A DNA stretch of 35,936 bases. Origin: an uncultured Oscillospiraceae bacterium (GTDB lineage Bacteria; Bacillota; Clostridia; Oscillospirales; Oscillospiraceae). Positions 4,668 to 29,515 of this stretch are shown one piece after another; within the stretch, counting starts at the first letter, position 1, and each line of letters starts with the position of its first letter. Location of the stretch: NCBI GenBank assembly GCA_934590325.1, contig CAKTOW010000019.1:1-35936 (forward strand), written 5' to 3'. The translations under genes and the position numbers were made by a program. A model generated the notes under the pieces. It did no database searches. It was not told where the DNA came from and was given only the letters and a program-made list of their open reading frames with translations.

Positions 4668-4669
4668 AC

Positions 4670-4704
4670 AAAAGCATCCGCGGCCATAGGCCGCGGATGC
4701 TTTT
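4670..4704. terminator. Bidirectional terminator between ribF and gntR
   Basis: A perfect 16-bp inverted repeat (4670-4685 with 4689-4704, 3-nt loop) has A-tracts at one end and T-tracts at the other. It lies between two convergent genes and can serve both. Confidence 0.9.
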
Positions 4705-4712
4705 GCGTATCT

Positions 4713-5438
4713 TTATACTTTCAGGTCGGTGCCTGCGGCGCGGGTATGCTCCCGCATAGCCTGCTTGGCCGCGTCGGCATCCTGACAGCGGATGGCGTCC
4801 AGTATCTCACGGTGGCGCTCCAGGATGCGCCGCGCCAGCGCCAGCTGCTCGCCGTCGTTCAGGGTGGACATCTTCTTCAGCAGGATGTGCTGCTCCACAT
4901 TGCCCAGCACCTCAGTGACGATCACCGCCACCTGGTTTCCGGTGGCACGGGACAGCAGGCCGTGGAACCGCACGTCCAGCTCCGCGAAGCGCCGGTAGTC
5001 CCCCAGGGACTGCTCCGCCGCCGCAAGGCAGTTCTCCAGCGATGCCAGATCGTCCTCCGTGCGGCGCAGCGCCGCCCAGCCGGCGATGGTGCCGTCGTTG
5101 ACGGCGCGGTACTCACCCAGCTCCTCCAGCGAGATCTGGTTCAGCTGCAGCATGGCCGTCAGGGGCTGCTCGACGCCGTCCACGGTCAGCTGCTGCACCA
5201 CGGCGCCGCTGGCACCGTGGGTGGAGGCCACATAGCCCCCCTGCTCCAGCATGCGCAGCGCCTCACGGATGGTGGGGCGGGAGCGGTGCAGCTGCTCCAT
5301 CATGGCACGCTCGGAGGGCAGCCGGTCGCCGGGCTTCAGCTTACCGGAGGTGATCATCTCCCGCAGCTGCTCATATATAGCCTCGCTGGCGCGTCTTTCG
5401 CCCAGGCTCTGCCACTCGATATGTACAGCCTCCGCCAT
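4713..5438 (-). CDS. GntR-family transcriptional regulator, FadR subfamily (FCD domain)
   Basis: This 241-residue protein has an N-terminal winged helix-turn-helix (about residues 15-75, motif LPSERAMMEQLHRSRPTIRE) and a C-terminal all-helical FCD ligand-binding domain. The FCD domain carries the Asp/His pattern that often binds a metal (LDVRFHGLL, HREILDAI, REHT). Such regulators usually sense small carboxylic or amino acids. The ATG at 5438 is chosen because AAAGGAGGG lies 5-14 nt upstream; an in-frame start at 5504 has no such site and would add 22 non-family residues. It sits downstream of the eight-gene fermentation operon on the same strand but has its own promoter (5472-5500). A perfect FadR-type operator in the promoter of that operon (14643-14657) is a good candidate target. 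That link is inference. Confidence 0.93.
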   Translation of the reverse strand: MAEAVHIEWQSLGERRASEAIYEQLREMITSGKLKPGDRLPSERAMMEQLHRSRPTIREALRMLEQGGYVASTHGASGAVVQQLTVDGVEQPLTAMLQLNQISLEELGEYRAVNDGTIAGWAALRRTEDDLASLENCLAAAEQSLGDYRRFAELDVRFHGLLSRATGNQVAVIVTEVLGNVEQHILLKKMSTLNDGEQLALARRILERHREILDAIRCQDADAAKQAMREHTRAAGTDLKV

Positions 5439-5471
5439 AAGCGCCCTCCTTTCGCGCAAAAATACCCTGCC

Positions 5472-5500
5472 AGTATACCCCCGCTCCCCCACAAATGCAA
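5472..5500 (-). promoter_or_regulatory. Sigma-A promoter of gntR
   Basis: On the minus strand, TTGCAT (5495-5500) and TATACT (5472-5477) are separated by 17 bp, about 34 nt upstream of the gntR ATG. No FadR-type operator is visible here, so autoregulation is not evident. Confidence 0.65.
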
Positions 5501-5516
5501 GCACTTCTTCTCAACA

Positions 5517-5572: not shown

Positions 5573-6685
5573 TTATTTCTTCAAAGCCTTCATTTCCTCG
5601 ATCATCATGGGCACGACCTTGAACAGGTCGCCGCAGATGCCGTAGTCCGCCACCTCGAAGATGGGGGCCACGTCGCTCTTGTTGACGGCGATGATGCACT
5701 CGGAGTCCTGCATGCCGGCCTTGTGCTGGATGGCACCGGAGATGCCCAGCGCCACATAGATGCGGGGATGGACGGTCTTGCCGGTCTGACCCACCTGATG
5801 GTCGGCGGTCATCCAGCCGGAGTCCACCACGGCGCGGGACGCGCCCACCACGCCGCCCATGAGGGCGGCCAGCTCCTCGGCCAGGGCAATGCCCTTCTCC
5901 ACGTCCTTGGCGATTCCGCGGCCCACGGAGACCACCACCTCAGCGCCGGTCAGGTCCACCATGGCGCGGGCGGCCTTGACGATCTCCAGCACCTTAGTGT
6001 GGATGTCGGCCTCGGTGAGGGTGAAGGCGGGATGGATGATCTCCACCTTCGCGGTGCCGGCGGCATCGAAGTCGCGCTTCTTCATGACGCCGGGGCGCAC
6101 GGTGGCCATGGCGGGGCGGAAGCGGGGGCACACGATGGTGGCCATCAGGTGACCGCCGAAGGCCGGACGGGTCATCTTCAGGTTGGTGTTGACATCGAAG
6201 AGCTTGGTCTCGAAATTCATGGAGTCCACATCCAGGGAGGACCCGGTACGCAGGAAGTTAATGTAGCCGTTCAGGTCCACGTCCAGGTGGGTGCAGTCAG
6301 CGCACAGGCCGGTGTGGAGACGGGCGGCGCAGCGGGGGGCCAGATCGCGGCCGATGTGGCTGGCGCCGAAGAGCATGATCTCGGGCTTGAACTCGTGCAC
6401 CGCGTCGGTGATGACCTTGGTGTAGGCGTCGGTGGTGTAATCCTTCAGCAGGGGGCTGTTGTAGACGTAGACCTTGTCCGCGCCGTAGCCGCCCAGTTCG
6501 GCGGCGATGCCGTCCACGCTGTCGCCCAGCAGGATGCCGCTGAGCTGGACGCCCAGTTCGTCGGCCAGCTTGCGGCCCTCGGAGATCAGCTCGAAGGTGG
6601 TGGGCATCATCTTGCCCTGACGCTGCTCACAAAAGACCCACACGCCGGAGAACGCCTTGGGGTCGGTATTCATAAAAGTAGACAT
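5573..6685 (-). CDS. etfA: Electron transfer flavoprotein, alpha subunit
   Basis: EtfA pairs with EtfB to carry electrons to or from acyl-CoA dehydrogenases. The 370-residue product has the ETF alpha N-terminal domain and the C-terminal FAD-binding domain, including GASRAVVDSGWM, the QVGQTGKTV motif and the LGISGAIQH signature, ending with INKSD-like and ADYGI segments. It has no ferredoxin-like N-terminal extension. ATG 6685 has GGGAG 6-7 bases upstream; a second ATG at 6673 is possible. It follows etfB by 15 bases and is the last gene of the operon. Here it probably feeds electrons to the adjacent enoyl-CoA reductase. Whether this ETF bifurcates electrons cannot be decided by eye. Confidence 0.95.
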   Translation of the reverse strand: MSTFMNTDPKAFSGVWVFCEQRQGKMMPTTFELISEGRKLADELGVQLSGILLGDSVDGIAAELGGYGADKVYVYNSPLLKDYTTDAYTKVITDAVHEFKPEIMLFGASHIGRDLAPRCAARLHTGLCADCTHLDVDLNGYINFLRTGSSLDVDSMNFETKLFDVNTNLKMTRPAFGGHLMATIVCPRFRPAMATVRPGVMKKRDFDAAGTAKVEIIHPAFTLTEADIHTKVLEIVKAARAMVDLTGAEVVVSVGRGIAKDVEKGIALAEELAALMGGVVGASRAVVDSGWMTADHQVGQTGKTVHPRIYVALGISGAIQHKAGMQDSECIIAVNKSDVAPIFEVADYGICGDLFKVVPMMIEEMKALKK

Positions 6686-6700: not shown

Positions 6701-7501
6701 TCAGATGATGTGCTTGGCGGACAGGATGCCGAACAGCTGCTCCACGGTCTCCTTGCCGCTGCCCTCCAGCATCATGCCGCTGCCCTTGCGGGGAGGCGTG
6801 AAGCTCTTGTAGATATTGGTGGGAGAACCCTTCAGACCGATGGTGTCCACCTCGATGAGGGGATCGTCCTTCAGCGCATTGTAGTCCAGCACGGTGACGG
6901 GCTCGGCGTCGCAGTCCAGGATGCCCCGGATGGTCATGTAGCGGGGGGTGTTCAGCTCCTTGATGCAGGTCAGCAGGCAGGGAGTCTGGACCTGGACGGT
7001 CATATAGCCGTCCTCCAGCATACGCCGGACGGTGAGGGTGTCGCCGTCCTTTTGAATGTCGGCCACATAGGACACCTGGGGGATCTCCAGCTTTTCGGCG
7101 ATCTGCGGGCCCACCTGGGCGGTGTCGCCGTCGATGGCCTGACGGCCGCAGAAGATGATGTCGTCCTTGTCCACGCCCAGGTTCTTGATGGCCGCGGCCA
7201 GGATCTGAGAGGTGGCGAAGGTATCGGAGCCGCCGAACTCACGGGCGGACACCAGCACGGCCTTGTCCACGCCCATGGCCTTCAGCTCCAGCAGCATACC
7301 GGCGGCGGGAGGGGGGCCCATGGACACGGCGATAACGGGGCAGCCCAGCTGGTCCTTCAGGGCCAGGGCGGCCTCGACGGCGTTCATATCGTCGGGGTTG
7401 ATGATGGTCTGCATGGAGGCGCGGTCCAGGGTGCCGTCGGCGTTGACGGCCACCTTGCCGGAGGTGTCGGGCACCTGCTTGACACATACGATAAGCTTCA
7501 T
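6701..7501 (-). CDS. etfB: Electron transfer flavoprotein, beta subunit
   Basis: This 266-residue EtfB has the family start MKLIVCVKQVPDT and the nucleotide-binding motif GRQAIDGDTAQVGPQIAE. In bifurcating ETFs a motif of this kind holds a second FAD; in classical ETFs the site holds AMP. The start has GGAG-type Shine-Dalgarno sequence about ten bases upstream. It lies 22 bases after the acyl-CoA dehydrogenase gene and 15 before etfA, the same acd-etfB-etfA order as in clostridial butyrate, isocaproate and arylpropionate pathways. The complex likely delivers NADH-derived electrons to the dehydrogenase. Confidence 0.95.
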   Translation of the reverse strand: MKLIVCVKQVPDTSGKVAVNADGTLDRASMQTIINPDDMNAVEAALALKDQLGCPVIAVSMGPPPAAGMLLELKAMGVDKAVLVSAREFGGSDTFATSQILAAAIKNLGVDKDDIIFCGRQAIDGDTAQVGPQIAEKLEIPQVSYVADIQKDGDTLTVRRMLEDGYMTVQVQTPCLLTCIKELNTPRYMTIRGILDCDAEPVTVLDYNALKDDPLIEVDTIGLKGSPTNIYKSFTPPRKGSGMMLEGSGKETVEQLFGILSAKHII

Positions 7502-7523: not shown

Positions 7524-8663
7524 TTACTTCAGCAAATTGCCGGAGATGACCATCTGCTGCACCTGAGAGGTGCCCTCGTAGATGGTGAACACGCGGCAGT
7601 CGCGGTATTTGCGCTCGACGGGGTACTCCTTGATGTACCCGTAGCCGCCGTGGATCTGCACCGCCTTGGCGGCGATCTCGTTGCAGGTCTCGGAGGCGAA
7701 GTACTTCGCCATGGAGCAGTACATGGAGGCGTTGGGGTCGTTCTTGTCCTTCATCTGGGCGGCCATGTAGACCAACTCCTTGGCGGCGGTCAGTTTGGTG
7801 GCCATATCCGCCAGCATGAAGGCGATCGCCTGGTTCTTGCAGATGGGCTTGCCGAACTGGACGCGCTCCTTGGAGTACTTGATGGCCTCGTCCAGGCAGC
7901 CCTGGGCCAGACCGATGGACTGGGCGGAAACGCCCAGGCGGCCGCCGTCCAGGGTCTTCATGGCGTTGATGAAGCCCATGTTCTCCTTGCCCAGCATGTC
8001 GCTCTTGTGGACGCGGACGTCCTCCAGCACCACGTCGGAGGTGGCGTAGCCCACCAGGCCCATCTTGGCCTCGTGCTTGCCGCAGGAGACACCGGGGGCC
8101 TTCATGTCCACGATAAAGGCGGAGATGCCCTTGTTGCCGCGGGACATGTCGGTCTTGGCGTAGACGATGCAGTAGTCGGCAAGGGGCGCGCCGGAGATAA
8201 AGCACTTACGGCCGTTGAGGATGTAGTAGTCGCCGTCCTTCACGGCGGTGGTGACCATGCCGCTGGCGTCGGAGCCGGCGCCGGGCTCGGTGAGACCGAA
8301 GACGATCTTCACCTTGTTCTCCACGGAGGGGCGGAGGTACTTCTCCAGCTGCTCAGGGGTGCCCGCCTGCATCAGGGGGCCGCCGCCCAGGGAGTTGGGG
8401 GTGTTGGCGTACAGGCTGGCCACGGCGGAGACACGGGCGATCTCCTCGATCATGATGATGTAGGCCAGGGTGTCGGCGCCGGCGCCGCCGTACTCGCGGG
8501 GGATCTTCAGGCCCAGGAAGCCGCACTTGGCCATCTTGTCCACGATCTCCTCGGGGAACTCGCCGGTCTCCTCCACCTTGTCGAGGACCTCGGTGGTGAG
8601 CTCGGTCTCGGCAAACTGGCGGACCAGCTTGCGGATCATTTCATGCTTTGCGTCGAAAATCAT
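7524..8663 (-). CDS. acdB: Acyl-CoA dehydrogenase acting as 2-enoyl-CoA reductase
   Basis: The 379-residue protein is a full-length flavin acyl-CoA dehydrogenase. It shows the FAD/substrate motif FGLTEPGAGSDASG, the GxxGKCFISG-type loop, and near the C-terminus IYEGTSQVQ, with Glu363 in the position of the catalytic base of short-chain enzymes. Start ATG 8663 is preceded by AGGAGG. In this cluster the enzyme should run as a reductase, turning the 2-enoyl-CoA made by HadBC into a saturated acyl-CoA with electrons from EtfAB. The symbol follows the C. difficile had cluster by position. Its chain preference (isocaproenoyl, cinnamoyl or acryloyl) is not known. Confidence 0.92.
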   Translation of the reverse strand: MIFDAKHEMIRKLVRQFAETELTTEVLDKVEETGEFPEEIVDKMAKCGFLGLKIPREYGGAGADTLAYIIMIEEIARVSAVASLYANTPNSLGGGPLMQAGTPEQLEKYLRPSVENKVKIVFGLTEPGAGSDASGMVTTAVKDGDYYILNGRKCFISGAPLADYCIVYAKTDMSRGNKGISAFIVDMKAPGVSCGKHEAKMGLVGYATSDVVLEDVRVHKSDMLGKENMGFINAMKTLDGGRLGVSAQSIGLAQGCLDEAIKYSKERVQFGKPICKNQAIAFMLADMATKLTAAKELVYMAAQMKDKNDPNASMYCSMAKYFASETCNEIAAKAVQIHGGYGYIKEYPVERKYRDCRVFTIYEGTSQVQQMVISGNLLK

Positions 8664-8698: not shown

Positions 8699-9700
8699 TC
8701 AGCAGGGGATCTCGTGCCGGGACTTGCCGTCCGTCAGGATCTCATAGATGCTGTTGACGCCGCACTCCGCCATCTGCTCGGCGGCCTCCTCGGTGAAGAA
8801 GGCCATGTGGGGGGTGTGGTACACGTTGACGAAGGAGCGCAGGTACTTCAGCTTGAAGTAGGGCATGCCGGGGGTGCGGATGATGTCCTCGTTGTGGGGG
8901 ACATGGATGATGCCGGTCTCGCCGGGGAAGGCGTCCATGAACAGGGCACCGAACTTGCCGGACTCCACGGCCTCGGTGACGGCGTCGATGTCCACCAGCT
9001 CGCCGCGGGCGTTGTCGATGAACACCACACCGTCCTTCATCTTGGCGATGGTCTCGCGGTTGATCATGCCGGTGGTCTCGGGCAGCAGCGGGGTGTGGAT
9101 GGTGATGATGTCAGACTCGCGGTACAGGGTGTCCAGATCCACGTACTCGGCGTACTCGCGGACGGCGTCGTTCTCGTACACGTCGTTGGCCAGAATACGG
9201 CAGCCGAAGCCGCTGAGGCACTTGATGACGGTGAAGCCGATCTTACCGGTGCCCATGACGCCCACGGTCATGGTGCGCAGCTCGCGGCCCATCTTGCCCT
9301 TCAGGGTAAAGTCGTTGTCATTGGTGTTGTACAGCGCCTTCTTGAACTTGCGGATGCACATCAGGATGGCCATGACGGTGTACTCCGCCACGCCGTTGGG
9401 GGCGTAAGCGCCGTTGCACAGGCGGAAGCCCAGGGAGCGGGCGTAGTCGCAGTTCATGTGGTTGTAGCCCACGCAGCGGCTGGCCAGCACCTTGACGCCG
9501 TAGCCCTTCAGCTCGTCCAGCACCTCGTTGCAGTAGTCGCTCTGGCCCAGGGTGGTGACGCCGTCGCAGCCGGCGGCCATGTTGGCGGTGGTCTTGTCCA
9601 GGTTGGCGGGGGTGGAGATCAGCTCGATACCGTATTTCTTGCACAGACCCTCGATAACGGGCTTCTCGTCGGGGCGTACTTCGTAAGCAGCGATTTTCAT
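8699..9700 (-). CDS. D-isomer-specific 2-hydroxyacid dehydrogenase (LdhA/FldH-like)
   Basis: This NAD-dependent dehydrogenase probably reduces a 2-oxo acid to an (R)-2-hydroxy acid, the first step of the pathway. The 333-residue protein has the Rossmann motif GTGKIG at 150-155 and the catalytic triad expected for D-lactate/D-2-hydroxyisocaproate dehydrogenases: Arg232 (NARGELVD), Glu261 (PGETG) and His298 (HTPHMAFF). The N-terminal substrate loop reads ASRCVGYNHMN. The start is supported by GAAGGAG a few bases upstream. It is followed by acdB after 35 bases but separated from hadA by about 300 bases containing repeats. In C. difficile the equivalent gene comes first in the operon. The substrate is not determined. 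Confidence 0.92.
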   Translation of the reverse strand: MKIAAYEVRPDEKPVIEGLCKKYGIELISTPANLDKTTANMAAGCDGVTTLGQSDYCNEVLDELKGYGVKVLASRCVGYNHMNCDYARSLGFRLCNGAYAPNGVAEYTVMAILMCIRKFKKALYNTNDNDFTLKGKMGRELRTMTVGVMGTGKIGFTVIKCLSGFGCRILANDVYENDAVREYAEYVDLDTLYRESDIITIHTPLLPETTGMINRETIAKMKDGVVFIDNARGELVDIDAVTEAVESGKFGALFMDAFPGETGIIHVPHNEDIIRTPGMPYFKLKYLRSFVNVYHTPHMAFFTEEAAEQMAECGVNSIYEILTDGKSRHEIPC

Positions 9701-9824
9701 GATTCTTCTCCTTCACATTTTCGGGCGGCGGCGCGCTCCTCAACGCGCCGCGCCCTTATATTTGGCTTTTCCTCAAATCACCGGGTCATTCTGCGTTGGT
9801 TTTTCGTCGATCCTGCTCCGCCGG

Positions 9825-9919
9825 CGGCGGAGAGATCTTCATCTCGTTCTTGCGGAGACAACGGTGGAGAGATTTTTTGTCCCGTTCTTGCGGGAACAGC
9901 GGCGGAGAGATTTTTCGCC
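9825..9919. repeat. Imperfect 38-bp tandem direct repeat, 2.5 copies
   Basis: Copies begin at 9825, 9862 and 9900. Each starts CGGyGGAGAGAT and continues, in the first two copies, to a shared CGTTCTTGCGG core. The third copy is truncated after about 20 bases. Within each full unit the sequence around the core can form a short hairpin. Confidence 0.75.
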
Positions 9920-9944
9920 AAGACGAGGCGCAGGGACGCAGGCG

Positions 9945-9978
9945 TACTTCGTGTACGTCAAGTGCCTGCAACGAAGTA
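9945..9978. repeat. 8-bp inverted repeat TACTTCGT/ACGAAGTA
   Basis: The arms at 9945-9952 and 9971-9978 are perfect and enclose 18 bases. The element follows the tandem repeats directly and may be part of one composite dispersed repeat. Confidence 0.6.
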
Positions 9979-10001
9979 TTGGCGGAAAAGATCCCGCCGT
10001 C

Positions 10002-11246
10002 TTAGTCCTTCAAAGCCGGATCCATGGGCACCGCCTCGCCGGCTGCTATCATAGCGGCCACCTGCTCGTCGGTGTAGCCCAGGTTCTTCAGCACCAGCTC
10101 GGTCTGCTCGCCCAGGTACGGACCGCGGTTGTAGGGGGGCAGCTCGGTCTCCTCGAAGATAACGGGGGGACGCACCATGGTGCGCTTGGCGCCGTTGGGG
10201 TACTCCATCTCGTAGAAGCAGCCGGAGGCCCAGGCCTGCTTATCCACCAGCAGCTGGTCCCAGGTCTGCGCTACGGCGTAGGGCAGATCGTTGGCGTCCA
10301 TGAGCTTGCACCACTCGTCCAGGGTGCGGGTAGCCATCTCGGCCACCAGGAAGTCATAGAACTCCTCGATGTTGGCCTGCAGGTTGGTCTGGGGATAGTA
10401 GCGGGGATCCTCAGCCAGCTCGGGGTGGCCGATGGCGCGCATAAAGATGGGATAGTGGCGGTTGTACTGGGGCATGGCAATCTGGAGCCACTTGTCGTCC
10501 TTGGTCTTGTGGCACACCACCAGGGGATTGGGCAGGGTGCGGCGGGACAGGGGGTACTGGGTAGTGGGGTCGCCGTACTGGCTGGCCTGCAGCAGCAGGG
10601 ACACGTCCCAAATGGCGCTGTGGAACAGGGAGACCACCACGCGGTCGCCGATGCCGGTCTCGCGGGCGCGGTACAGGGCCGCCAGCACGCCGGAGGCCAG
10701 GTACATACCCACCTGATGGTCGCCGAAGCCGGCGATGGTCAGCATGGGGAGGGCGTCCTTATCGAACAGGGTGCCCAGGATGCCGCCGCGGGCGAAGAAG
10801 GCGGTGAAGTCGAAGCCGGGCAGATCCTTGTCGGGGCCCTTCTCGCCGTAGCCGGAGACAAAGCCGTACACCAGGGCGGGGTACCTGGCGTGGAGGGTAT
10901 CGTAGTCCAGGCCGGCCTTCTTCAGGGGGTTCTGGCGCCAGTTGGTGATGAAGATGTCCGCCTCGGCGATGAGCTTCTCCAGGGCTTCGCGGCCGGCGGG
11001 GGTCTTGGTGTTCAGGCAGACGCAGGTCTTGCCGGCGTTCTCCAGGTCGTAGGAGGTGTTCTCCTTCTGGTCCTGGGGACGGCCCTCGTTGACGGCGGTG
11101 TAGCGCAGGGGGTCACCGGCGGGGGCCTCGACCTTGATGACCTCGGCGCCCAGGTCGGCCAGGAAGCGGGCGCAGCAGGGAGCGGCGATGAAGGTTGCCA
11201 GCTCCAGAACTTTTACTCCCTCAAGGGGACGCTTGACTTCACTCAT
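10002..11246 (-). CDS. hadA: Family III (CaiB/BaiF) CoA-transferase, HadA/FldA-like
   Basis: The 414-residue enzyme belongs to the formyl-CoA transferase (family III) group, which moves CoA between carboxylates through an aspartyl-CoA thioester. The catalytic Asp is visible at about residue 146 in PGFDFTAFFARGG, matching the HadA/FldA pattern. The N-terminal GVKVLELATFIAAPC and GAEVIKVEAP motifs are typical. It should activate the 2-hydroxy acid using the pathway's acyl-CoA end product. Start 11246 follows hadC after 33 bases. Family III rather than a two-subunit acetate CoA-transferase argues for amino-acid reductive fermentation and against the lactate-to-propionate acrylate pathway. The symbol is by analogy. 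Confidence 0.92.
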   Translation of the reverse strand: MSEVKRPLEGVKVLELATFIAAPCCARFLADLGAEVIKVEAPAGDPLRYTAVNEGRPQDQKENTSYDLENAGKTCVCLNTKTPAGREALEKLIAEADIFITNWRQNPLKKAGLDYDTLHARYPALVYGFVSGYGEKGPDKDLPGFDFTAFFARGGILGTLFDKDALPMLTIAGFGDHQVGMYLASGVLAALYRARETGIGDRVVVSLFHSAIWDVSLLLQASQYGDPTTQYPLSRRTLPNPLVVCHKTKDDKWLQIAMPQYNRHYPIFMRAIGHPELAEDPRYYPQTNLQANIEEFYDFLVAEMATRTLDEWCKLMDANDLPYAVAQTWDQLLVDKQAWASGCFYEMEYPNGAKRTMVRPPVIFEETELPPYNRGPYLGEQTELVLKNLGYTDEQVAAMIAAGEAVPMDPALKD

Positions 11247-11279: not shown

Positions 11280-12392
11280 TCACATTTTCAGCAGATCGCG
11301 GAAGGTCTCCAGATTGGTGCGGACCTGCTCGAAGCGGACCATCTGACGGTCCACCTCCACAAGGGTCAGGGGCAGGTCGGCGGCCTCGCAGGCCTTCTTG
11401 ATCATGACGTAATCGAATTCCTCCGGGTCGCAGAACTTGGTCAGGACCACCAGGACACCCTTGGCGTTCCGGGCCTTGGCGGTGTCCACGATCCACTTGA
11501 CGCGGTTCTTGTCCTGGTCATACAGGACGGAGCAATTGCCCATGTTGGCGAACTTCTCGGCCAGGGCCTGCAACGCGTCGGCGCGCTCCTCCGTATCGGT
11601 GCGGTACTGGCGGGACTGGGCGGCCACGTCGTCGGCCACGATGTGCATATCCATCTCGCTGAGGATGTCGTTCAGGGCCGGGGCATCGGTGAGGATGCCG
11701 GAGATGACGATGGGCAGCTTCTCCGCGGCGGCGGGAGCGGTCTCCAGCTTGGCGATGAACTCCTCCACCAGGGCGGTGTGCTCCTCCTTGGTCATGAAGA
11801 AGGCGCTCTTGAAGATGTCGCTGCGCTGGGCGGGGGTGATCTCCGGGTGGTTGGCCAGGAGCTCATCCACCTTGCGCATGGCGGCGTTGTGGCGGTTGTA
11901 GACCTTGACGGAAGCCAGCAGCTTCTCCTCGGAGAAGGTGCCGCCCAGCTTTTCCAGGTCGCGGATGACACGCTCGTACCCAGCCTTGGTGTAGGCGACA
12001 CCGTAGGCGGGCTTGCGGTTCTGGGGATAGGTCATGGGGATGAACGGGATGGACGGCACAGCGTACTTCCAGTTCTCGCCCACGGTCTTGAGGGTGTCGC
12101 ACAGGGAGGGGATGACGATGGCGCTGGCGCCCTCGTAGGCCCCGGTGATGCCCAGCTCCAGCAGGGACTGGACGATGGAACACAGGAAGGCGGGACAGTA
12201 CTCCTTGGCGCGGTTCAGGGCCACATCGCCGCCCCAGGCGCCCATGGGGACGAAGCCCATGGCGTGGATGATCTCCTCGGGGGTGTAGACGGGAGCGCAG
12301 AGCACGACCTTCTTGCCCTGGGCCAGATAGTGCTTCATCTGTGCCTTGGGAGAGGCAGCTACCTCATGGAATCTGTTGAGGATGTCGTTCAT
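11280..12392 (-). CDS. hadC: 2-hydroxyacyl-CoA dehydratase, small subunit (HadC/FldC-like)
   Basis: This 370-residue protein is one half of the radical 2-hydroxyacyl-CoA dehydratase (HgdB/HadC family), which removes water via a ketyl radical formed by one-electron reduction. Visible features are the GFVPMGAWGG segment, Cys66 and Cys71 (EYCPAFLCS), Cys98 (SLCDTLK) and a late Cys in TKFCDPEEFD, which together provide candidates for the [4Fe-4S] ligands. Length matches HadC/FldC. The ATG is preceded by AAAGGAGTG and lies three bases after the hadB stop, so coupled translation in equal amounts is likely. Confidence 0.92.
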   Translation of the reverse strand: MNDILNRFHEVAASPKAQMKHYLAQGKKVVLCAPVYTPEEIIHAMGFVPMGAWGGDVALNRAKEYCPAFLCSIVQSLLELGITGAYEGASAIVIPSLCDTLKTVGENWKYAVPSIPFIPMTYPQNRKPAYGVAYTKAGYERVIRDLEKLGGTFSEEKLLASVKVYNRHNAAMRKVDELLANHPEITPAQRSDIFKSAFFMTKEEHTALVEEFIAKLETAPAAAEKLPIVISGILTDAPALNDILSEMDMHIVADDVAAQSRQYRTDTEERADALQALAEKFANMGNCSVLYDQDKNRVKWIVDTAKARNAKGVLVVLTKFCDPEEFDYVMIKKACEAADLPLTLVEVDRQMVRFEQVRTNLETFRDLLKM

Positions 12393-12395
12393 GCC

Positions 12396-13637
12396 TTACA
12401 CTCCTTTCGCAGCCTTGTTGGCTTCCATGATCTCGGTGAGGCCCTGCACGCGGGTGTCGTACTGTGCCTCGGAGAAATTGCGGGGATCGGCCTGGTCGCC
12501 GTCGAAGCTGACCACGGGAATATTGCAGGCCGCGCCGATCTGACGGCTCATCTCGTACATGAAGCCGCTCCACAGCTTGCAGGAGCGGTTGGTATGCACC
12601 AGCATACCCTCCACGTGGTTGTCCTTGCAGAGCTTGATGCGCTTGTCGCGGCTCATCTCCAGGTTGATGGCGTTGGGCACCTTGCAGTAGGCGCGGATCA
12701 TCTCATCGAAGGTGTTGTAGTCGAAGCCGAAGGCATCGGCGTAGATGGTGGTGACCATGTTGATGCCCCGGGACTTCAGGCCGGTGCTGGTGGCGCGCAG
12801 GTAGGGCCAGCAGGCGATACCCTCGAACATGATGCGGTGCTTTTCCTCACCGCGGAAGGTGGACGTGCCGTTCTTGTGGTTGTCCTCGTACTCCTTCAGC
12901 AGGGTCTCCATGGCGTCGGCGGCGGTGGACTTGCCCCGGGCGGTGACCATGACGGCCATGTGGTTCAGCAGGTCGAAGCCGTTGAAGGGAGAGGGCACGT
13001 ACTTGGCGCAGCCGGTGGCCGCCAGCCAGGCGCGGCTGGAGCGGCAGCTGAAGCCGGTGACCTCCTTGAACTTCTCGTCGGACCACTTCTTGCCGGTGAT
13101 CTCCTCCAGCTGGTGGACGGCATCCCAGAACTGGCCGGTGACGTAGGCCACCTCGGCGTCGGACACCTCATAGTCGGGGTTGAAGGGGATGTCCAGCAGG
13201 ATCATGGGGATGTTCAGCTCACGGGCCAGATTCTCGTACCACTTGATCATGCAGGAGCAGATGTTGCTGCAGCACAGCAGCACGTCGGGCATGGCCACGT
13301 CCTGCTCGGGACAGGATTTCAGCTTGGCGTAGGCCAGGGACACGCGGGCGTAGGCGCAGATGTCGTTGGAGTAGCCCTCGGACTCCGCCACCTCGCACAT
13401 TCTCGTGCCCGCGCCGCGGGCGGCGATGCCGGCGGCCTGGTTCTCGGGGTACACGGTGGCGATGCCCATGGTCTCGGGGATCTCCACGGGGAAGTTGCTG
13501 GACACCCAGGCGACCTTCTCGCCCCGCTTCTTGGCCTCGATGGCGTCCACATAGGCGTCCGCCGCGATCTTGCCCAGCTTGTACTTGGCGGAGTTGGGGT
13601 CCACCGGCTTCGGGGCCTTTTTCACTTCTTCTGCCAT
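12396..13637 (-). CDS. hadB: 2-hydroxyacyl-CoA dehydratase, large subunit (HadB/FldB-like)
   Basis: The 413-residue partner of HadC. Candidate [4Fe-4S] ligands by analogy with HadB are Cys94 (DICAYAR), Cys127 in CCSNICSCM, and the Cys of NRSCKLW near the C-terminus. I chose ATG 13637, seven bases from AGGAGG (13645-13650); an upstream in-frame start at 13658 would include the ribosome binding site itself. It follows the activator gene hadI after 52 bases. The dimer with HadC should dehydrate (R)-2-hydroxyacyl-CoA to (E)-2-enoyl-CoA. The enzyme needs HadI and is expected to be oxygen-sensitive. Confidence 0.92.
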   Translation of the reverse strand: MAEEVKKAPKPVDPNSAKYKLGKIAADAYVDAIEAKKRGEKVAWVSSNFPVEIPETMGIATVYPENQAAGIAARGAGTRMCEVAESEGYSNDICAYARVSLAYAKLKSCPEQDVAMPDVLLCCSNICSCMIKWYENLARELNIPMILLDIPFNPDYEVSDAEVAYVTGQFWDAVHQLEEITGKKWSDEKFKEVTGFSCRSSRAWLAATGCAKYVPSPFNGFDLLNHMAVMVTARGKSTAADAMETLLKEYEDNHKNGTSTFRGEEKHRIMFEGIACWPYLRATSTGLKSRGINMVTTIYADAFGFDYNTFDEMIRAYCKVPNAINLEMSRDKRIKLCKDNHVEGMLVHTNRSCKLWSGFMYEMSRQIGAACNIPVVSFDGDQADPRNFSEAQYDTRVQGLTEIMEANKAAKGV

Positions 13638-13689
13638 TTCATTTCCTCCTCGTTCCACACGATATATAGTAAGTGAATCTCCATCTTTC

Positions 13690-14466
13690 TCACTTGCTTA
13701 CTTCTTTATATGCCCACAGGGCCGCGCCGATGGCGCCGAAATACTGCGCCAAGGGGTCCACGCTGATGGGGACGTTCAGCTCGGCGCTGAGGGCCTGGCG
13801 GACGGCGTCGTTCTGCGCCACGCCGCCGGAGAGACATACACGCTCCGTGACGCCGGCGCGCCGGGCCAGCGCCGCCACGCGGCTGGCCACGCTGCGGCAA
13901 ATGCCCGCCACCAGGTCGGGGCGCCTGACGCCGTTGGCCAGCTGGCTGATGACCTCGCTCTCGGCAAACACCGTGCAGGTGCTGGAGATGGCCGCGGGGG
14001 ACTCTGCCCTGGCGGCCTCGCCGTCCAGTTCGTCCACGCTGAGGCGGAGAATGGAGGCCATCACGTCCAGGAACCGGCCGGTGCCGGCGGCGCACTTGTC
14101 GTTCATGACGAAGTTGGTCATTTTACCGGAGGGGGACAGGGCGATGACCTTGGCGTCCTGGCCGCCGATGTCGATGACCGTCCGCAGGTCGGGGAACACA
14201 AAGCGGCCGCCCAGAGCGTGGGCGGTCAGCTCGCTGATCTCGCCGTCGGCGCCCTGATAGTTCTTGCGGCCGTAGCCGGTGACGAAGGCGCAGGCCATAT
14301 CCTCACGGCGAAGGCCGCTGTCACGCCACAGCTGGGCCAGAGCCTCCTCCGGGCCGCCGGTGCCCAGACCGCCCAGCTGCAGGCTGTGAGCCGTCAGGTC
14401 TGTTCCGTCTTTAAGAACGGCGCACTTGGAAGTGGTGCTGCCGATGTCGATGCCTAAGGTGTACAT
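13690..14466 (-). CDS. hadI: Activator of 2-hydroxyacyl-CoA dehydratase (HadI/FldI/HgdC-like ATPase)
   Basis: This 258-residue ASKHA-fold ATPase injects one high-energy electron into the dehydratase at the cost of ATP. The N-terminal phosphate motif GIDIGSTTSKCAVL and the second motif VIDIGGQDAKVI are clear. Cys125 (NDKCAAGTGRFLD) and Cys164 (STCTVFAESEVIS) match the two cysteines that, in the homodimer, hold the single bridging [4Fe-4S] cluster in HgdC. It is the first gene of the operon; in the C. difficile cluster the activator is internal. A leader of about 190 nt with strong hairpins and a GntR-type operator precedes it. Confidence 0.94.
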   Translation of the reverse strand: MYTLGIDIGSTTSKCAVLKDGTDLTAHSLQLGGLGTGGPEEALAQLWRDSGLRREDMACAFVTGYGRKNYQGADGEISELTAHALGGRFVFPDLRTVIDIGGQDAKVIALSPSGKMTNFVMNDKCAAGTGRFLDVMASILRLSVDELDGEAARAESPAAISSTCTVFAESEVISQLANGVRRPDLVAGICRSVASRVAALARRAGVTERVCLSGGVAQNDAVRQALSAELNVPISVDPLAQYFGAIGAALWAYKEVSK

Positions 14467-14659
14467 GAAAGTTCTCCTTGTTATACGTAGGTCTCGCGTC
14501 CAGCCCGGCTGACGGCTCCATCAACACAGGAGAGCCTTTTGCAGGGCGCGGTGCCGCAAAACATATCCCATTGCCCTTCAGAGGGCAAATTTGAGAATGG
14601 CGCCTGCGGCGCAATTTTCAAATTTCATGGCAATGGGGTCCTACTGGTCTTACCAGTTT
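14467..14659 (-). promoter_or_regulatory. Structured 5' leader of the hadI operon
   Basis: The predicted transcript starts near 14659 and carries about 190 nt before hadI. Nested complementarity is visible: an outer 9-bp pairing (CCCATTGCC near 14577 with GGCAATGGG near 14629), a 7-bp hairpin around GCCCTTCAGAGGGC inside it, and a 17-bp AT/GC hairpin with two imperfect pairs around 14588-14628. A further hairpin pairs TTTTGC with GCAAAA around 14537-14561. None is followed by a T-run on the minus strand, so it is not an obvious attenuator. I recognise no known riboswitch class. The hadI ribosome binding site is AAGGAGAAC. Confidence 0.55.
14643..14657. promoter_or_regulatory. FadR/GntR-type operator ACTGGT-CTT-ACCAGT
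   Basis: A perfect 6-bp inverted repeat with a 3-bp centre. Its core TGGTCTTACCA fits the FadR-subfamily consensus TNGTNNNACNA exactly. It begins about two bases past the predicted start of the hadI transcript, a position where a bound protein would block transcription. The FadR-type regulator encoded at 4713-5438 is the obvious candidate. Confidence 0.75.
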
Positions 14660-14665
14660 ATCTAC

Positions 14666-14694
14666 ATTATACGGGTTTGTGAAAAATGCGTCAA
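14666..14694 (-). promoter_or_regulatory. Sigma-A promoter of the hadI-to-etfA operon
   Basis: On the minus strand TTGACG (14689-14694) and a perfect TATAAT (14666-14671) are separated by 17 bp. The operator follows directly. This should be a strong promoter when not repressed. Confidence 0.85.
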
Positions 14695-14824
14695 TTGTGC
14701 GAATCGCCAAAGAAATAACAATTATCTGTGCATTGTACCAAGCCGCACTTTAAATGATTAAAACATTCGGGGTTTTTCGGGGCGGAATGTTGCGTTTTTG
14801 CGCAAAATCGTCATGGCGGTATGA

Positions 14825-14856
14825 CAAAACCGCATGGCGCGATATGCGCCATGCGG
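14825..14856 (-). terminator. Intrinsic terminator of the small gene at 14867
   Basis: A perfect 11-bp stem (14830-14840 with 14846-14856) is followed on the minus strand by TTTTGT. It shields the hadI promoter region from transcription coming from the two small genes. The DNA between it and the hadI promoter (14695-14824) is AT-richer and holds no gene that I can support. Confidence 0.8.
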
Positions 14857-14866
14857 CGGGCGGAGG

Positions 14867-15082
14867 CTACTGCTCCAGGTCGTGCTTGTCCAGGTGCATA
14901 TCGCGGTAGGCTCTGGGCAGACCGGGGCCAATGAGGGGAAAGACATTCTCCGTGTCGGACGTAGGCTGGATGTTGTAGGTGCCGTACATATTCACCAGGT
15001 CGAAGCTGCTCCGGGGCACGCCGGGAAAATGGTGGACATCCGGCGTGGCGTCGTAGGGAAAGCCGGACTTGCGTTTGGGCAT
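14867..15082 (-). CDS. Small conserved-looking protein of unknown function, 71 aa
   Basis: I do not recognise this 71-residue protein. It begins MPKRKSGFPYDATPDVHHFP and is rich in Pro, Asp and His, with no signal peptide, membrane segment or cysteines. The start at 15082 is set by a near-perfect GGAGGTGA (15088-15095) five bases upstream. The gene has its own terminator. A shadow explanation is unlikely because the ribosome binding site, stop and terminator all fit. It lies 51 bases after another small gene on the same strand. Its ribosome binding site is inside a hairpin (see 15091-15115). Confidence 0.7.
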   Translation of the reverse strand: MPKRKSGFPYDATPDVHHFPGVPRSSFDLVNMYGTYNIQPTSDTENVFPLIGPGLPRAYRDMHLDKHDLEQ

Positions 15083-19258: not shown

Positions 19259-22027
19259 TTATTCGATGACGGGGAGCTTTCTGACCACGGCGGCGCAGCG
19301 GGGGCACAGGTCGGGGTGCTCGCTGTCGCTGCCCACGGCGGGCAGGACCTTCCAGCAGCGGGCACACTTGGCGCCGGCGGCGGGGCGGACGGCCACGGAC
19401 TGCTCCGCGCCCACGTCCACGCGCACCTGGGAGACAATGAACAGGTCGGCCACGACGGCGGCGTCCATGTCGGCCAGGAAGGCGTCCTCGGCGGTAACGG
19501 TCAGATCCACCTCGGCCTCCAGGCTCTTGCCGATGGTCTTGTCGGCACGGGCGGTCTCCAGCGCGCCGTTGACGGCGGTGCGGAGGGCGGCGATGCGGGC
19601 CCACTTGGCCATATCCTCGTCGGAGAGGGCGTAGCCGTTGTAGGGCAGCACCATCTCGTTGAACAGGACGTTGCGCCCATCGTCGCAGGAGCGGTGGGGC
19701 ATGGCCAGCCAGATCTCGTCGCAGGTGAACGCCAGGATGGGGGCGAACAGGCGGGTCATGGCGTCCAGGATCAGGAACAGGGCGGTCTGGGCGCTGCGGC
19801 GGGAGAGACCATTGGTCTCGTCGCAGTACAGGCGGTCCTTCAGGATGTCGAAGTAGAAGGAGCTGAGGTCCACCACGCAGAAGTCGTTGATCATGTGGGA
19901 GACCACGTGGAACTCGTAGTTGTCGTAGGCGGCGTAGGCGCGCTTCAGCAGGTCGTTGAGGCGGGTGACGGCCCACTTGTCCAGAGGCAGCATATCCGCA
20001 GGCTCCACCAGGTGATCGGCGTCGAAGCCCACCAGGTTATCCAGGCAGAACTTGGCGGTGTTGCGGAACTTCAGGTAATTCTGGCTCAGCTGCTTGAAGA
20101 TCTCGTCGGAGCAGCGGACGTCCACATGGTAGTCGGAGGAGCCTGCCCACAGGCGCAGCAGGTCGGCACCGTACTTGTTGAAGATCTCGGCGGGGTCCAT
20201 GCCGTTGCCCAGGGACTTGTGCATGGCCTTGCCCTCGCCGTCCACGGTCCAGCCGTGGGTGACGCACTCCTTGAAGGGGGCGCCGCGGCCCAGAGCGCCC
20301 ACGGCCACCAACAGGGAGGACTGGAACCAGCCGCGATACTGGTCAAGGCCCTCGATGTACATGGTGGCGGGCCAGAAGCCCTGGTCCCGCTCCATGGCGG
20401 CGAAGTGGGTGGAGCCGGAGTCGAACCAGCCGTCCAGGGTGTCGGTCTCCTTCTCGAAGCCGGAGGACTTGCCGCAGTGGGGGCAGGTGAAGCCCTTGGG
20501 CAGGATGTCGGCGGCGTCCATGTCGAACCAGGCGTTGGAGCCCTCCTTCTCGAACAGGGCGGCCACGGCCTCAATGCTCTCGGGGGTGCAGACGGGCTTG
20601 CCGCAGTCCTTGCAGTAGAACACGGGGATGGGCAGGCCCCAGCGGCGCTGGCGGCTGATGCACCAATCGGTGCGCTCGAGGATCATGGAGCGCATACGGT
20701 CCTTGCCCCAGGCGGGCACCCAGCGGACATCCTCGCAGGCGGCGATGGCCTCATCCTTGAAGGAGTCCACGGAGCAGAACCACTGGGGGGTGGCGCGGAA
20801 GATGATGGGCTGCTTGCAGCGCCAGCAGTGGGGGTAGCTGTGGACGATGTCCTCGCTGGCGAACAGGGTGCCGTTGTCCTTCATATCCTGCAGAATGACG
20901 GGGTTGGACTCGTCGGTGGTCATGCCCTCGTACTTGCCGGCGTAGGCGGTGTGCTTGCCCTGGTCGTCCACGGGCACCACCATGTCCATACCGTAGCGCT
21001 TGCAGGTGACATAGTCGTCGGCGCCGAAGCCGGGCGCGGTGTGGACGCAGCCGGTACCGGAATCCATGGTGACGTAGTCCGCCAGCACCAGACGGGAGGT
21101 CTTGGGCAGGAAGGGGTGCTGGGCCAGCATATTCTCGAAGAAGGAGCCGGGGTGGGTCTCCACGATCTCGTAGGAGTCGAAGCCGCCGATCTTCATGACC
21201 TTCTCGGTCAGGGCCTCGGCCATGATGTACATCTCGCCGTTGGGGGCCTTGACCACGGCGTAGGACTCGTCGGGGTGCAGGGCGATGGCCAGGTTGCCGG
21301 GCAGGGTCCAGACGGTGGTGGTCCAGATCACGAAGTACAGCTTGCTGTGGTCCAGGTGGGACAGCTTGCCCTGGTCATCGTTCATGGGGAACTTGACGTA
21401 GACGGTGGTGCAGGGGTCGTCCTTGTACTCGATCTCCGCTTCGGCCAGGGCGGTCTCGTCGTGGGGGCACCAGTACACGGGCTTCAGACCCTTGTAGATG
21501 TGACCGTTCTGATACATCTTGCCGAACACGCGGACCTCCTGGGCCTCGAAGCCGGGGTCCATGGTCTTGTAGGGGTGCTCCCAGTCGCCCACCACGCCCA
21601 TGCGCTTGAAGCCGTCGCGCTGGACGTCGATATAGTGATCGGCGAACTCATGGCAGGCGGTGCGGAAGTCCGCCACGCTCATGGCCTTGTGGTTCAGCTT
21701 GTTCTGCTTGATGATGGCGGACTCGATGGGCATGCCGTGGTTATCCCAGCCGGGGATATAGGGGGTGTAGTAGCCCCGCATGGCGTACATACGGGTGATG
21801 AAGTCCTTCAGGGACTTGTTCAGGGCGTGGCCCATGTGCAGCGCGCCGTTGGAGAACGGAGGGCCGTCGTGGAGGGAGAACAGGGGCTTGCCCTCGTTCT
21901 TCTTCAGCAGCTCGTTGTAGAGGTCCAGTTCTTCCCAGTGCTTGAGCATCTCCGGCTCGCGAGTGGGCAGACCGGCGCGCATGGGAAAGCCGCTCTTGGG
22001 CATATTCAGTGTCTTCTTGTACTCCAT
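19259..22027 (-). CDS. ileS: Isoleucyl-tRNA synthetase
   Basis: IleRS charges tRNA-Ile and edits valine. The 922-residue class I enzyme has the HIGH motif as HMGH (residues 64-67, after DGPPFSNGAL), the CP1 editing domain (GTGCVHTAPGFG), the KMSKS loop as MHKSLGN, and a C-terminal zinc finger with four cysteines (CARCWK...CPRC). ATG 22027 is chosen for AAGGAGAAG upstream; the frame stays open to 22153 but that part is T-box leader. It is controlled by the T-box at 22063-22344. No odd residues were seen. Confidence 0.98.
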   Translation of the reverse strand: MEYKKTLNMPKSGFPMRAGLPTREPEMLKHWEELDLYNELLKKNEGKPLFSLHDGPPFSNGALHMGHALNKSLKDFITRMYAMRGYYTPYIPGWDNHGMPIESAIIKQNKLNHKAMSVADFRTACHEFADHYIDVQRDGFKRMGVVGDWEHPYKTMDPGFEAQEVRVFGKMYQNGHIYKGLKPVYWCPHDETALAEAEIEYKDDPCTTVYVKFPMNDDQGKLSHLDHSKLYFVIWTTTVWTLPGNLAIALHPDESYAVVKAPNGEMYIMAEALTEKVMKIGGFDSYEIVETHPGSFFENMLAQHPFLPKTSRLVLADYVTMDSGTGCVHTAPGFGADDYVTCKRYGMDMVVPVDDQGKHTAYAGKYEGMTTDESNPVILQDMKDNGTLFASEDIVHSYPHCWRCKQPIIFRATPQWFCSVDSFKDEAIAACEDVRWVPAWGKDRMRSMILERTDWCISRQRRWGLPIPVFYCKDCGKPVCTPESIEAVAALFEKEGSNAWFDMDAADILPKGFTCPHCGKSSGFEKETDTLDGWFDSGSTHFAAMERDQGFWPATMYIEGLDQYRGWFQSSLLVAVGALGRGAPFKECVTHGWTVDGEGKAMHKSLGNGMDPAEIFNKYGADLLRLWAGSSDYHVDVRCSDEIFKQLSQNYLKFRNTAKFCLDNLVGFDADHLVEPADMLPLDKWAVTRLNDLLKRAYAAYDNYEFHVVSHMINDFCVVDLSSFYFDILKDRLYCDETNGLSRRSAQTALFLILDAMTRLFAPILAFTCDEIWLAMPHRSCDDGRNVLFNEMVLPYNGYALSDEDMAKWARIAALRTAVNGALETARADKTIGKSLEAEVDLTVTAEDAFLADMDAAVVADLFIVSQVRVDVGAEQSVAVRPAAGAKCARCWKVLPAVGSDSEHPDLCPRCAAVVRKLPVIE

Positions 22028-22062
22028 GTTGCTTCTCCTTTTATCTGAATATATTTGGTAAC

Positions 22063-22104
22063 AAAATAAAAAGCACCTTTGTCTCGTCAAGAGACAAAGG
22101 TGCT
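22063..22104 (-). terminator. Terminator arm of the ileS T-box
   Basis: A perfect 14-bp stem (22072-22085 with 22091-22104) is followed on the minus strand by TTTTATTTT. It competes with the antiterminator formed by the T-box sequence. Confidence 0.93.
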
Positions 22105-22344
22105 GAAAAACGACCTCTGCGGTACCACTCTCGTTGCCGCGCTGTGCGGCCACTCGCTCCCCACGGGATGGGGCGGGGAGAAGGTAACGGCTCCCTGTGC
22201 CGTCCGCGCTTACCGGCTGGGCTTTCAGGCGGATGCTCCGGGGTGATGTTCGCTGGCTGCGTCCCGTCCGCCTTGCACCAAACGGCGGCTCTCTTTGCGT
22301 GGACGCGAGGCGCTACTTGTCCCCTTCATCGCAGTTTCGATATT
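22063..22344 (-). promoter_or_regulatory. T-box riboswitch of ileS, isoleucine (AUC) specifier
   Basis: The leader carries the conserved T-box sequence GAGTGGTACCGCAGAGG (22114-22130, minus strand), a Stem I start GATGAAGGGGACAAGTAG, and a specifier region GAACATCACC with the isoleucine codon ATC at 22245-22247. The 3' end is an intrinsic terminator. Uncharged tRNA-Ile would bind the specifier and the antiterminator bulge to allow ileS transcription. The 393-base gap between ileS and hemW is filled by this leader, its promoter and a terminator. Confidence 0.95.
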
Positions 22345-28597: not shown

Positions 28598-28627
28598 AAG
28601 AGTTATTACAGAAACGAGGTGAGCAGG

Positions 28628-29515
28628 ATGACACAAAATGACAAGATCCAGTTGTTCGAGGACAAGCGCATTCGTACCGCATGGGACGAAGAAAAGGAAG
28701 AATGGTACTTTTCGGTTGTAGATGTCGTTGCAGTTCTGACGGATCAGCCAGATGCCCGTCATGCCAGTACATATTGGGCAGTTTTAAAGAAGCGGCTGAA
28801 TAACGAGGGCGCAGGCCAACTGCTTACAAATTGTAAGCAGTTGAAAATGACCGCCTCGGATGGGCGGAAACGTTTGACCGACGTGGCCGACACGGAGCAG
28901 CTTCTTCGTATTATCCAGTCCATTCCTTCACCCAAAGCGGAACCGTTTAAACTGTGGCTGGCGCAGGTCGGCAGAGAGCGCATTGAGGAAACCATCGATC
29001 CAGAGTTGACCATTGAACGGGCATTGGAGACATACCTCAAGAAAGGCTACACCCGCGAGTGGATCAACCAGCGGCTGCAGGCCATCCAAGTCCGCAAGGA
29101 ACTGACGGATGAATGGGATGCTCGCGGTGTACAGAAGGGCGTGGAGTACGCAATACTTACCGATGAGATCTCCCGTGCATGGTCAGGGATGTCCACACGG
29201 CAATATAAAAACCTCAAGGGTCTGAAGAAAGAAAACCTCCGCGACAACATGACCACGCTGGAATTGGTGCTGAATATGCTGGCAGAGGCGACCACCACAG
29301 AAATATCCAAGCAGAAATCTCCGGAGACATTTTCGGAGAATCTGGCTGTAGCCCGTGAGGGCGGTGAAGCTGCTGGGATTGCACGGAAGGCAGTCGAGGA
29401 GCGCACGGGTGTCCCTGTTATTACCGCCAAGAACGCCGCACAGCTCAATCAGATCGTGACAGAACTGCTGGAAGGCGCTACTGTACAGTCAGAAAAGCAA
29501 GACAAAAAGAACTGA
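28628..29515 (+). CDS. BRO-N / DinD-like antirepressor-family protein
   Basis: A 295-residue protein with an N-terminal BRO-N-like domain (about residues 5-115: TAWDEEKEEWYFSVVDVVAVL, then the DVADTEQLLRIIQSIPSP block) and a helical C-terminal half (ERALETYLKKGYTREWINQRLQ). The family includes phage antirepressors and the DNA-damage-inducible DinD of E. coli. Such genes are common on prophages and integrative elements. ATG 28628 is chosen over an in-frame GTG at 28619 because GAGGTG lies six bases upstream of the ATG. A strong terminator follows 31 bases after the stop. Confidence 0.8.
   Translation: MTQNDKIQLFEDKRIRTAWDEEKEEWYFSVVDVVAVLTDQPDARHASTYWAVLKKRLNNEGAGQLLTNCKQLKMTASDGRKRLTDVADTEQLLRIIQSIPSPKAEPFKLWLAQVGRERIEETIDPELTIERALETYLKKGYTREWINQRLQAIQVRKELTDEWDARGVQKGVEYAILTDEISRAWSGMSTRQYKNLKGLKKENLRDNMTTLELVLNMLAEATTTEISKQKSPETFSENLAVAREGGEAAGIARKAVEERTGVPVITAKNAAQLNQIVTELLEGATVQSEKQDKKN

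Follow-up and report, generated by a model that had tools for sequence, protein, structure and literature searches.

The analysed stretch of DNA (the window, 35,936 nucleotides from an uncultured Oscillospiraceae bacterium) carries a nine-gene unit on the minus strand, spanning positions 14466-4713 in the order hadI-hadB-hadC-CoA-transferase-2-hydroxyacid dehydrogenase-acyl-CoA dehydrogenase-etfB-etfA-gntR (Table 1). The unit has the complete makeup of a had-type dehydratase cluster, comprising an activator, two HGD-D subunits, a family III CoA-transferase, a 2-hydroxyacid dehydrogenase, an acyl-CoA dehydrogenase and EtfAB, with the two dehydratase subunits scoring below the HadB and HadC equivalog cut-offs; no permease is found among its nine genes. 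The intergenic gaps are 3-68 bp long, except for 301 bp between the CoA-transferase and dehydrogenase genes, and we found no promoter-like site on the minus strand inside the unit, this longer gap included. The gap (9701-10001) contains two adjoining 38-bp copies at 9842 that are 84% alike, and its counterpart in a related genome (G002) measures about 87 bp between BLAST matches.

The gntR gene is the last of the unit and is directly followed by a terminator-like hairpin. It gave the only match to the regulator protein in the window (E <= 1e-10), in agreement with the initial annotation, which had placed the window's sole GntR/FadR regulator just past the far end of the operon. The true start of gntR is probably near 5435, judging from sequence comparison, because most close relatives are 239-242 aa long.

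Table 1. Features of the had operon and its control region in the window.
Feature	Position	Strand	Basis
hadI-type dehydratase activator ATPase	13690..14466	-	BcrAD_BadFG; TIGR00241 256.9 bits, cut-off 125.4 passed
hadB-type 2-hydroxyacyl-CoA dehydratase alpha subunit	12396..13658	-	HGD-D; NF052455 475.5 bits, under cut-off 750
hadC-type 2-hydroxyacyl-CoA dehydratase beta subunit	11280..12392	-	HGD-D; NF052456 409.8 bits, under cut-off 700
Family III CoA-transferase, hadA/fldA-like role	10002..11246	-	CoA_transf_3
D-2-hydroxyacid dehydrogenase, VanH/LdhA-like	8699..9700	-	2-Hacid_dh_C; top NCBIfam match vanH_gen 241.8 bits, under cut-off 540
Acyl-CoA dehydrogenase, enoyl-CoA reductase role	7524..8663	-	Acyl-CoA_dh domains; AcrC model 418.3 bits, under cut-off 640
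EtfB	6701..7501	-	NF042971 (acryloyl-CoA reductase electron transfer subunit gamma) 505 bits, over cut-off 475
EtfA	5573..6685	-	NF042970 (acryloyl-CoA reductase electron transfer subunit beta) 663.7 bits, over cut-off 600
gntR, FadR-subfamily regulator (GntR HTH + FCD), last gene of unit	4713..5504	-	PF00392, PF07729 over cut-off
Intrinsic terminator-like hairpin, 18 pairs, directly 3' of gntR	4668..4706	-	Hairpin search
hadI leader, longer than in relatives, two stable predicted hairpins	14467..14642	-	RNA fold
Predicted GntR operator ACTGGTAAGACCAGT (transcribed-strand reading), over expected transcription start	14643..14657	-	Palindrome and comparison of clusters
Sigma-70 type promoter TTGACG-N17-TATAAT of had operon	14666..14694	-	11/12 consensus positions

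Two promoter-like sites were found upstream of hadI, the better of which, TTGACG-17-TATAAT, agrees with the consensus at 11 of 12 positions (the other scores 9). Downstream of it lies ACTGGTCTTACCAGT (14643-14657), a perfect 6-3-6 palindrome, ACTGGT-CTT-ACCAGT, that matches the FadR-subfamily pattern TNGTNNNACNA exactly. This 15-mer begins 8 nt past the -10 box and thus covers the expected transcription start. The initial annotation had reported both a promoter with a palindrome a few bases downstream and the exact fit to the FadR-subfamily pattern; sequence and coordinates are as described there, the promoter being on the minus strand.

The RNA of the hadI leader folds strongly: the fold of 14660-14467 reaches -70.6 kcal/mol (z -3.0), with 2 of 200 shuffles being as good. 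The distance between operator and hadI is 190 bp in the window, as compared with 38-78 bp at the hadI sites of 12 relatives (measured from the start of the protein match, and from the nearer site in G218), and a leader of roughly 180 nt looks to have been inserted between operator and hadI. No Rfam family reached the gathering score in this leader. When the hairpins were considered as a possible mobile repeat, a second copy turned up neither in the window nor in viral contigs, and 200 genomes of the family yielded only two matches, each with two mismatches. Elsewhere in the window, a T-box leader (RF00230, 100.3 bits; 22087-22338, minus strand) lies upstream of a class I tRNA synthetase gene (19259-22153) of the I/L/M/V type with an IleRS zinc finger, and an open frame at 28619-29515 encodes a phage-like BRO-N domain (42.1 bits) beside ordinary chromosomal genes.

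Short palindromes may arise by chance, and the 11-mer TGGTNNNACCA, observed once in the window, is expected there 0.44 times and occurred at least once in 32 of 100 shuffles. The short pattern alone is therefore not significant, and the window alone is no proof of function. If up to 2 mismatches are allowed, 0.76 occurrences of the 15-mer are expected in the window; the exact 15-mer was found 20 times in all, distributed over 18 of 200 related genomes, or about 0.1 per genome. A refined motif, CTGGTMWKACCAG, is expected 0.08 times with at most one mismatch, and 8 of 100 shuffles contain one, although this motif was derived from sites that include the window's own. The central triplet reads M-W-K in 19 of 19 sites (a restriction derived from these same sites), giving CTGGT-MWK-ACCAG as the conserved site. 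A longer palindrome extending beyond CTGGT...ACCAG is striking in three genomes (G009, G012 and G014), but over the 19 sites the outer pairing is little above what composition predicts, and we rejected it. We also dropped rarity from composition alone as an argument, since a reversed-pattern control was commoner than the motif in 13 of 18 genomes and overall across the 200 related genomes. The case accordingly rests on the position of the site and on its co-occurrence with the regulator, not on genome-wide rarity.

To define the carriers of the regulator, its relatives were searched in one genome from each of 84,980 species, with at least 80 loci matched. The best 18 of these (E 2e-47 or better), together with 5 genomes from the two family samples described next, make up the 23 carriers; the other 62 of the 80 matched loci (E 4e-33 or weaker) were not counted. 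At E <= 1e-50 the regulator is rare, being present in 7 of 200 and 9 of 300 family-sample genomes and in 3 of 394 order-sample genomes (the samples overlap). The 15 regulator-bearing clusters considered below are the window and every carrier genome with a HadB or HadI locus (14 genomes).

Of these 15 clusters, 14 have the exact core CTGGTNNNACCAG no more than 300 bp upstream of one of their had-cluster genes. It precedes hadI in the window, G001, G002, G004, G007, G009, G012, G013, G014, G042, G159 and G218, and the CoA-transferase gene in G005, G199 and G218; the hadI site of G005 has one mismatch. The only miss is Alkalispirochaeta alkalica (G003), which has the regulator (46% identity) and a had cluster, yet no such site. 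In all, the 15 loci contain 16 exact sites in 199,632 bases. In most clusters the regulator gene adjoins the had cluster or sits inside it. In so far as their contigs extend, G001 and G002 are arranged like the window, with the site preceding hadI-hadB in the former and hadI-hadB-hadC-CoA-transferase-dehydrogenase in the latter, where the regulator is on a separate contig after an etfA fragment. The regulator gene is itself preceded by a site in G004 (exact) and in G199 (one mismatch).

Several carriers contain more than one copy. Two operator copies occur in the divergent hadI/CoA-transferase region of G218 and G004 (L166:6073-6287 and L161:7465-7714, 202 and 237 bp apart), the CoA-transferase copy in G004 having one mismatch. 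A third site in G218, also with one mismatch, is near a response regulator gene. G199 has an additional site upstream of a D-2-hydroxyacid dehydrogenase gene, one (site 4, L158) in front of a gene whose product combines a GntR HTH with a LacI-type sugar-binding domain, and one (site 5, L164:1833) within a long open frame.

The layout of the control region is conserved as well. At 12 of 13 hadI sites, the window's among them and the exception being G004, we found an exact TATAAT with a -35 box of at most one mismatch at a spacing of 17 nt, and the operator core 8-18 nt further downstream; the CoA-transferase sites of G004, G005 and G218 have no such promoter alongside. A site just downstream of a near-consensus -10 box is in a place that fits a repressor blocking initiation or early elongation. 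E. coli FadR is both a repressor and an activator, and the regulator could likewise be an activator or dual-acting, with the site aiding RNA polymerase. We consider this quite improbable, because the promoters upstream of the 12 hadI sites are near consensus and should need no help, and because the place of the site fits blocking.

Clusters that have no regulator were compared as well. A HadB relative (E <= 1e-80) is present in 31 of 200 family genomes, 26 of which are without the regulator at E <= 1e-50. These 26 genomes gave 31 HadB matches, of which the best per genome was kept and 5 were dropped (two from G057, one from G133 and two from G166); contig ends truncate a flank in 4 of the 26 clusters, and hadB alone is within reach in G165 and G056. 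None of the 26 has an exact CTGGTNNNACCAG within 300 bp upstream of a had-cluster gene. Since the HadB proteins of this set are distant (39-57% identity) apart from that of G082 (74%), a class-level sample was added, in which a close HadB (60-84% identity, E <= 1e-160) is present in 12 of 391 genomes. The regulator was found in none of these 12 genomes at E <= 1e-50, two of them giving a weak match around 1e-36 at another place, and their loci contain no exact site, only two one-mismatch sites away from gene starts. Pooling the 38 regulator-less loci, we counted 0 exact sites in 499,650 bases.

Among these, G1005 (L210) is the best natural control: it has all eight enzyme genes in the window's order, its HadB, at 84% identity, branches within the clade of the window on the HadB tree, and it has neither a regulator match at E <= 1e-30 nor an operator site. 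In G1005 a LysR-family gene (L210:9439-10386) is divergent from hadI, where the had operon is without the GntR gene and the site, and this gene is a candidate for a regulator swap. The HadB tree, which omits G009 and G012 because HadB is off-contig beside their HadI, provides 4 well-supported independent contrasts, of which on average 3.4 go in the expected direction, 0 in the opposite one and 0.6 show no difference; with only 4 contrasts a sign test is unable to reach 0.05.

These counts bear on whether the palindrome is a protein site at all. It might be a chance match, or part of a hairpin-rich leader RNA, as the expectation for the 11-mer in the window and the strongly folding leader would allow. 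However, its position and sequence are conserved over 14 clusters whose leaders otherwise differ, and it is absent where the regulator is absent, which makes this explanation extremely improbable; chance, which the 11-mer in the window alone would not exclude, is rejected on the comparison of carriers with non-carriers. The initial annotation had named as refuting its reading a lack of the motif at orthologous clusters in which the regulator is kept; the motif is present at 14 of 15 such clusters and at 0 of the regulator-less clusters examined.

The site is not confined to had clusters. Nine carriers have no had cluster (G006, G008, G010, G011, G015, G016, G017, G018 and G171), and in four of them (G006, G010, G011 and G018) TGGTNNNACCA is absent from the fetched regulator locus, G010 having only the laxer TTGTAAGACCA upstream of the regulator. 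In G017 the operator lies between gntR and iorA (L100:4454-4541; indolepyruvate:ferredoxin oxidoreductase alpha, over cut-off), which suggests that the regulator family may also serve 2-oxo-acid oxidation. A one-mismatch site precedes etfB beside gntR in G015, with etfA and a FAD-linked oxidase gene next, and a site precedes etfB about 8 kb from the regulator gene in G016. G008 has a one-mismatch site before acdB-etfBA, about 6.6 kb from the regulator gene, and a further site between a permease gene and an mscL gene. In G171, a genome without a HadB match, ATGGTCTTACCAT is found between the regulator and a divergent 3-hydroxyisobutyrate-dehydrogenase-like gene; the site at L087:1282-1292 reads TGGTCTTACCA. 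Outside these carriers, CTGGTMWKACCAG occurs just before the gene of the related regulator in 7 of 7 Amycolatopsis loci among those matched (L019, L020, L021, L023, L030, L035 and L041; 9967-9979), making autoregulation probable in this distant relative. The motif is therefore one of a wider subgroup and not had-specific. CTGGTMWKACCAG sites in L092, L093, L096 and L101 are inside open frames and look like chance, and one site in L097 is near a contig end.

As a rival reading, a genuine operator might chiefly serve a different member of the FadR subfamily encoded at another place in the genome, for example an LldR that senses lactate and has the same TGGTNNNACCA motif, while the local gntR would have some other target. 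LldR of several bacteria uses TGGTNNNACCA, according to PMC9600882, and the Amycolatopsis sites and those before the etf genes in G015 (one mismatch) and G016 are in line with such a reading. On the other hand, the site tracks the local regulator (14 of 15 clusters with it against 0 of 26 without it at the family level, and no exact site in the 38 regulator-less loci), and the regulator gene is beside or inside the had cluster in most clusters. We therefore regard use by another regulator as unlikely. Judged by these sequence comparisons, the local regulator and the operator very probably form a pair.

The regulator has the domains of the FadR subfamily, with PF00392 (69.9 bits) and PF07729 (71.6 bits) both over cut-off. 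In a regulator tree, a single group (support 88/80) unites most of the had-linked proteins with those of G006 and G011; the G199 protein is outside this group, and the Lachnospiraceae proteins with acd/etf targets (G008, G015 and G016) form a separate clade together with that of G018. Five residues, R110, D154, H158, H208 and H230, are invariant in 16 aligned sequences. The best sequence match in the PDB is CGL2915 of C. glutamicum (2di3), which we take to be LldR, and all five residues align with it. A single-chain model of the regulator has a pLDDT of 82.5 and a pTM of 0.57, with residues 85-111 poorly predicted. The first five different proteins in a fold search with it were NanR (with sialic acid), DhdR, S. 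agalactiae GntR, VanR and CGL2915, at TM-scores near 0.5, because the domain arrangement is uncertain.

LldR, a lactate-responsive repressor of the FadR subfamily in C. glutamicum, A. woodii, C. lactatifermentans and others, is among the closest known systems. GntR and FCD domains and the TGGTNNNACCA core are common to both. For LldR of Caproicibacterium lactatifermentans, itself a member of the Oscillospiraceae, Arg116, Asp164, His168, His217 and His239 are reported to bind Zn2+ (PMC9600882); compared as position lists, without alignment of that sequence, residues 110, 154, 158, 208 and 230 here stand in the same order and at nearly the same spacing. LldR controls lactate uptake and oxidation, whereas the operon here is one of 2-hydroxyacyl-CoA reduction, and the regulator scores 96.7 bits against the NCBIfam LldR equivalog, below its cut-off of 311.

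Two further members of the subfamily are also close known systems. E. coli FadR has a consensus operator that is nearly the same as the core CTGGTNNNACCAG, and its sequence match to the regulator covers the N-terminal winged helix and part of the ligand domain; against the NCBIfam FadR models, the regulator scores 39 and 38.2 bits, short of the cut-offs of 189 and 249.2. FadR binds acyl-CoA, and one entry in the fold-search results, 1h9g, names myristoyl-CoA in its title; in contrast, the regulator here keeps the metal/carboxylate residue set. DhdR of Achromobacter denitrificans (9jpj), which stands in the second row of the fold search, is a related GntR repressor of the FadR subfamily that represses a 2-hydroxyacid dehydrogenase gene and its own gene and is released by D-2-hydroxyglutarate (PMC8651671). 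Its operator GTTATCAGATAAC overlaps the -35 region, unlike ACTGGTAAGACCAGT here, which differs in sequence and is downstream of the -10 box, and its target is an oxidising dehydrogenase, unlike the had operon.

With two of the nearest characterised relatives, LldR and DhdR, sensing 2-hydroxyacids, the operon making and using 2-hydroxyacids, and the residue set reported for LldR being kept, a carboxylic 2-hydroxy- or 2-oxo-acid appears a likelier inducer than an acyl-CoA or other CoA ester. A regulator that senses a metabolite of the pathway, as suggested in the initial annotation, would agree with this residue set. Other near relatives sense other carboxylates (NanR), and whether the inducer would in fact be a 2-hydroxy- or 2-oxo-acid is evenly balanced in our estimate.

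Local transcriptional control of a had operon has a precedent of a different kind. For the hadAIBC-acdB-etfBA operon of C. difficile, control by sigma54/LeuR is predicted, accompanied by a SigL gel shift (PMC6615313). That operon, too, is locally controlled at transcription, but by a predicted enhancer-binding activator and a -24/-12 promoter, whereas the promoter here is of the sigma-70 type: no -24/-12-like element with up to 2 mismatches is present in 14467-14900, and the whole window contains 10 as against 19.9 expected. In the open-licence literature, in so far as its text was accessible (including PMC6262375, PMC6311696 and PMC11332178), we found no local GntR/FadR control of had, fld, acryloyl-CoA reductase, reductive Stickland or isocaproate systems, and no local control of a had operon other than that in C. 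difficile. The initial annotation's remark that no GntR control had been described for had/fld clusters hence stands within this literature, with the addition that local control of another type does exist. An LldR/FadR-type local repressor is a kind of system that is already known, here predicted on a pathway for which no such control was found in this literature.

Taken together, these observations make it likely, in our view with considerable confidence, that the GntR/FCD regulator (gene at 4713-5504) has the palindrome at 14643-14657 as its operator and acts as a repressor. Sequence comparison shows the site and the promoter, how the operon is ordered, and that regulator and site occur together; from this we infer binding, a repressing and not an activating role, and the ligand class. 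With no inducer present, the predicted regulator dimer would sit on the operator just past the -10 box, and the occupied operator would block transcription of the whole had operon. The regulator's own gene, as the last cistron, would be repressed too, resulting in negative feedback. The inducer, most likely one of the pathway's small carboxylates (a 2-hydroxy- or 2-oxo-acid) binding to the FCD domain's metal site, would release the regulator, so that the reductive 2-hydroxyacyl-CoA branch would be made. The dedicated local repressor with this operator that the initial annotation had envisaged is thus favoured by the contrast between 14 of 15 clusters with the regulator and none of those examined without it, and by the position of the site past the -10 box.

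More tentatively, and at somewhat less than even likelihood, the regulator may belong to a clade of dedicated 'HadR' repressors in Oscillospiraceae and their neighbours, which would gauge how much of the pathway's (R)-2-hydroxyacid is present, an aryl- or branched-chain lactate for instance, by means of a metal site like that of LldR, and thereby gate reductive amino-acid fermentation. Regulator and operator would have been gained and lost together, with a LysR gene taking their place in at least one syntenic operon.

Reductive 2-hydroxyacyl-CoA pathways yield gut products such as isocaproate, phenylpropionate and indolepropionate, and, to our knowledge, little seems to have been described of how gut anaerobes beyond a few clostridia switch these pathways on. 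Given a candidate regulator, an exact operator and a few candidate ligands, the control of these pathways can be put to a direct test. The regulator would also be a candidate biosensor part, should its ligand prove to be a 2-hydroxyacid different from lactate and 2-hydroxyglutarate.
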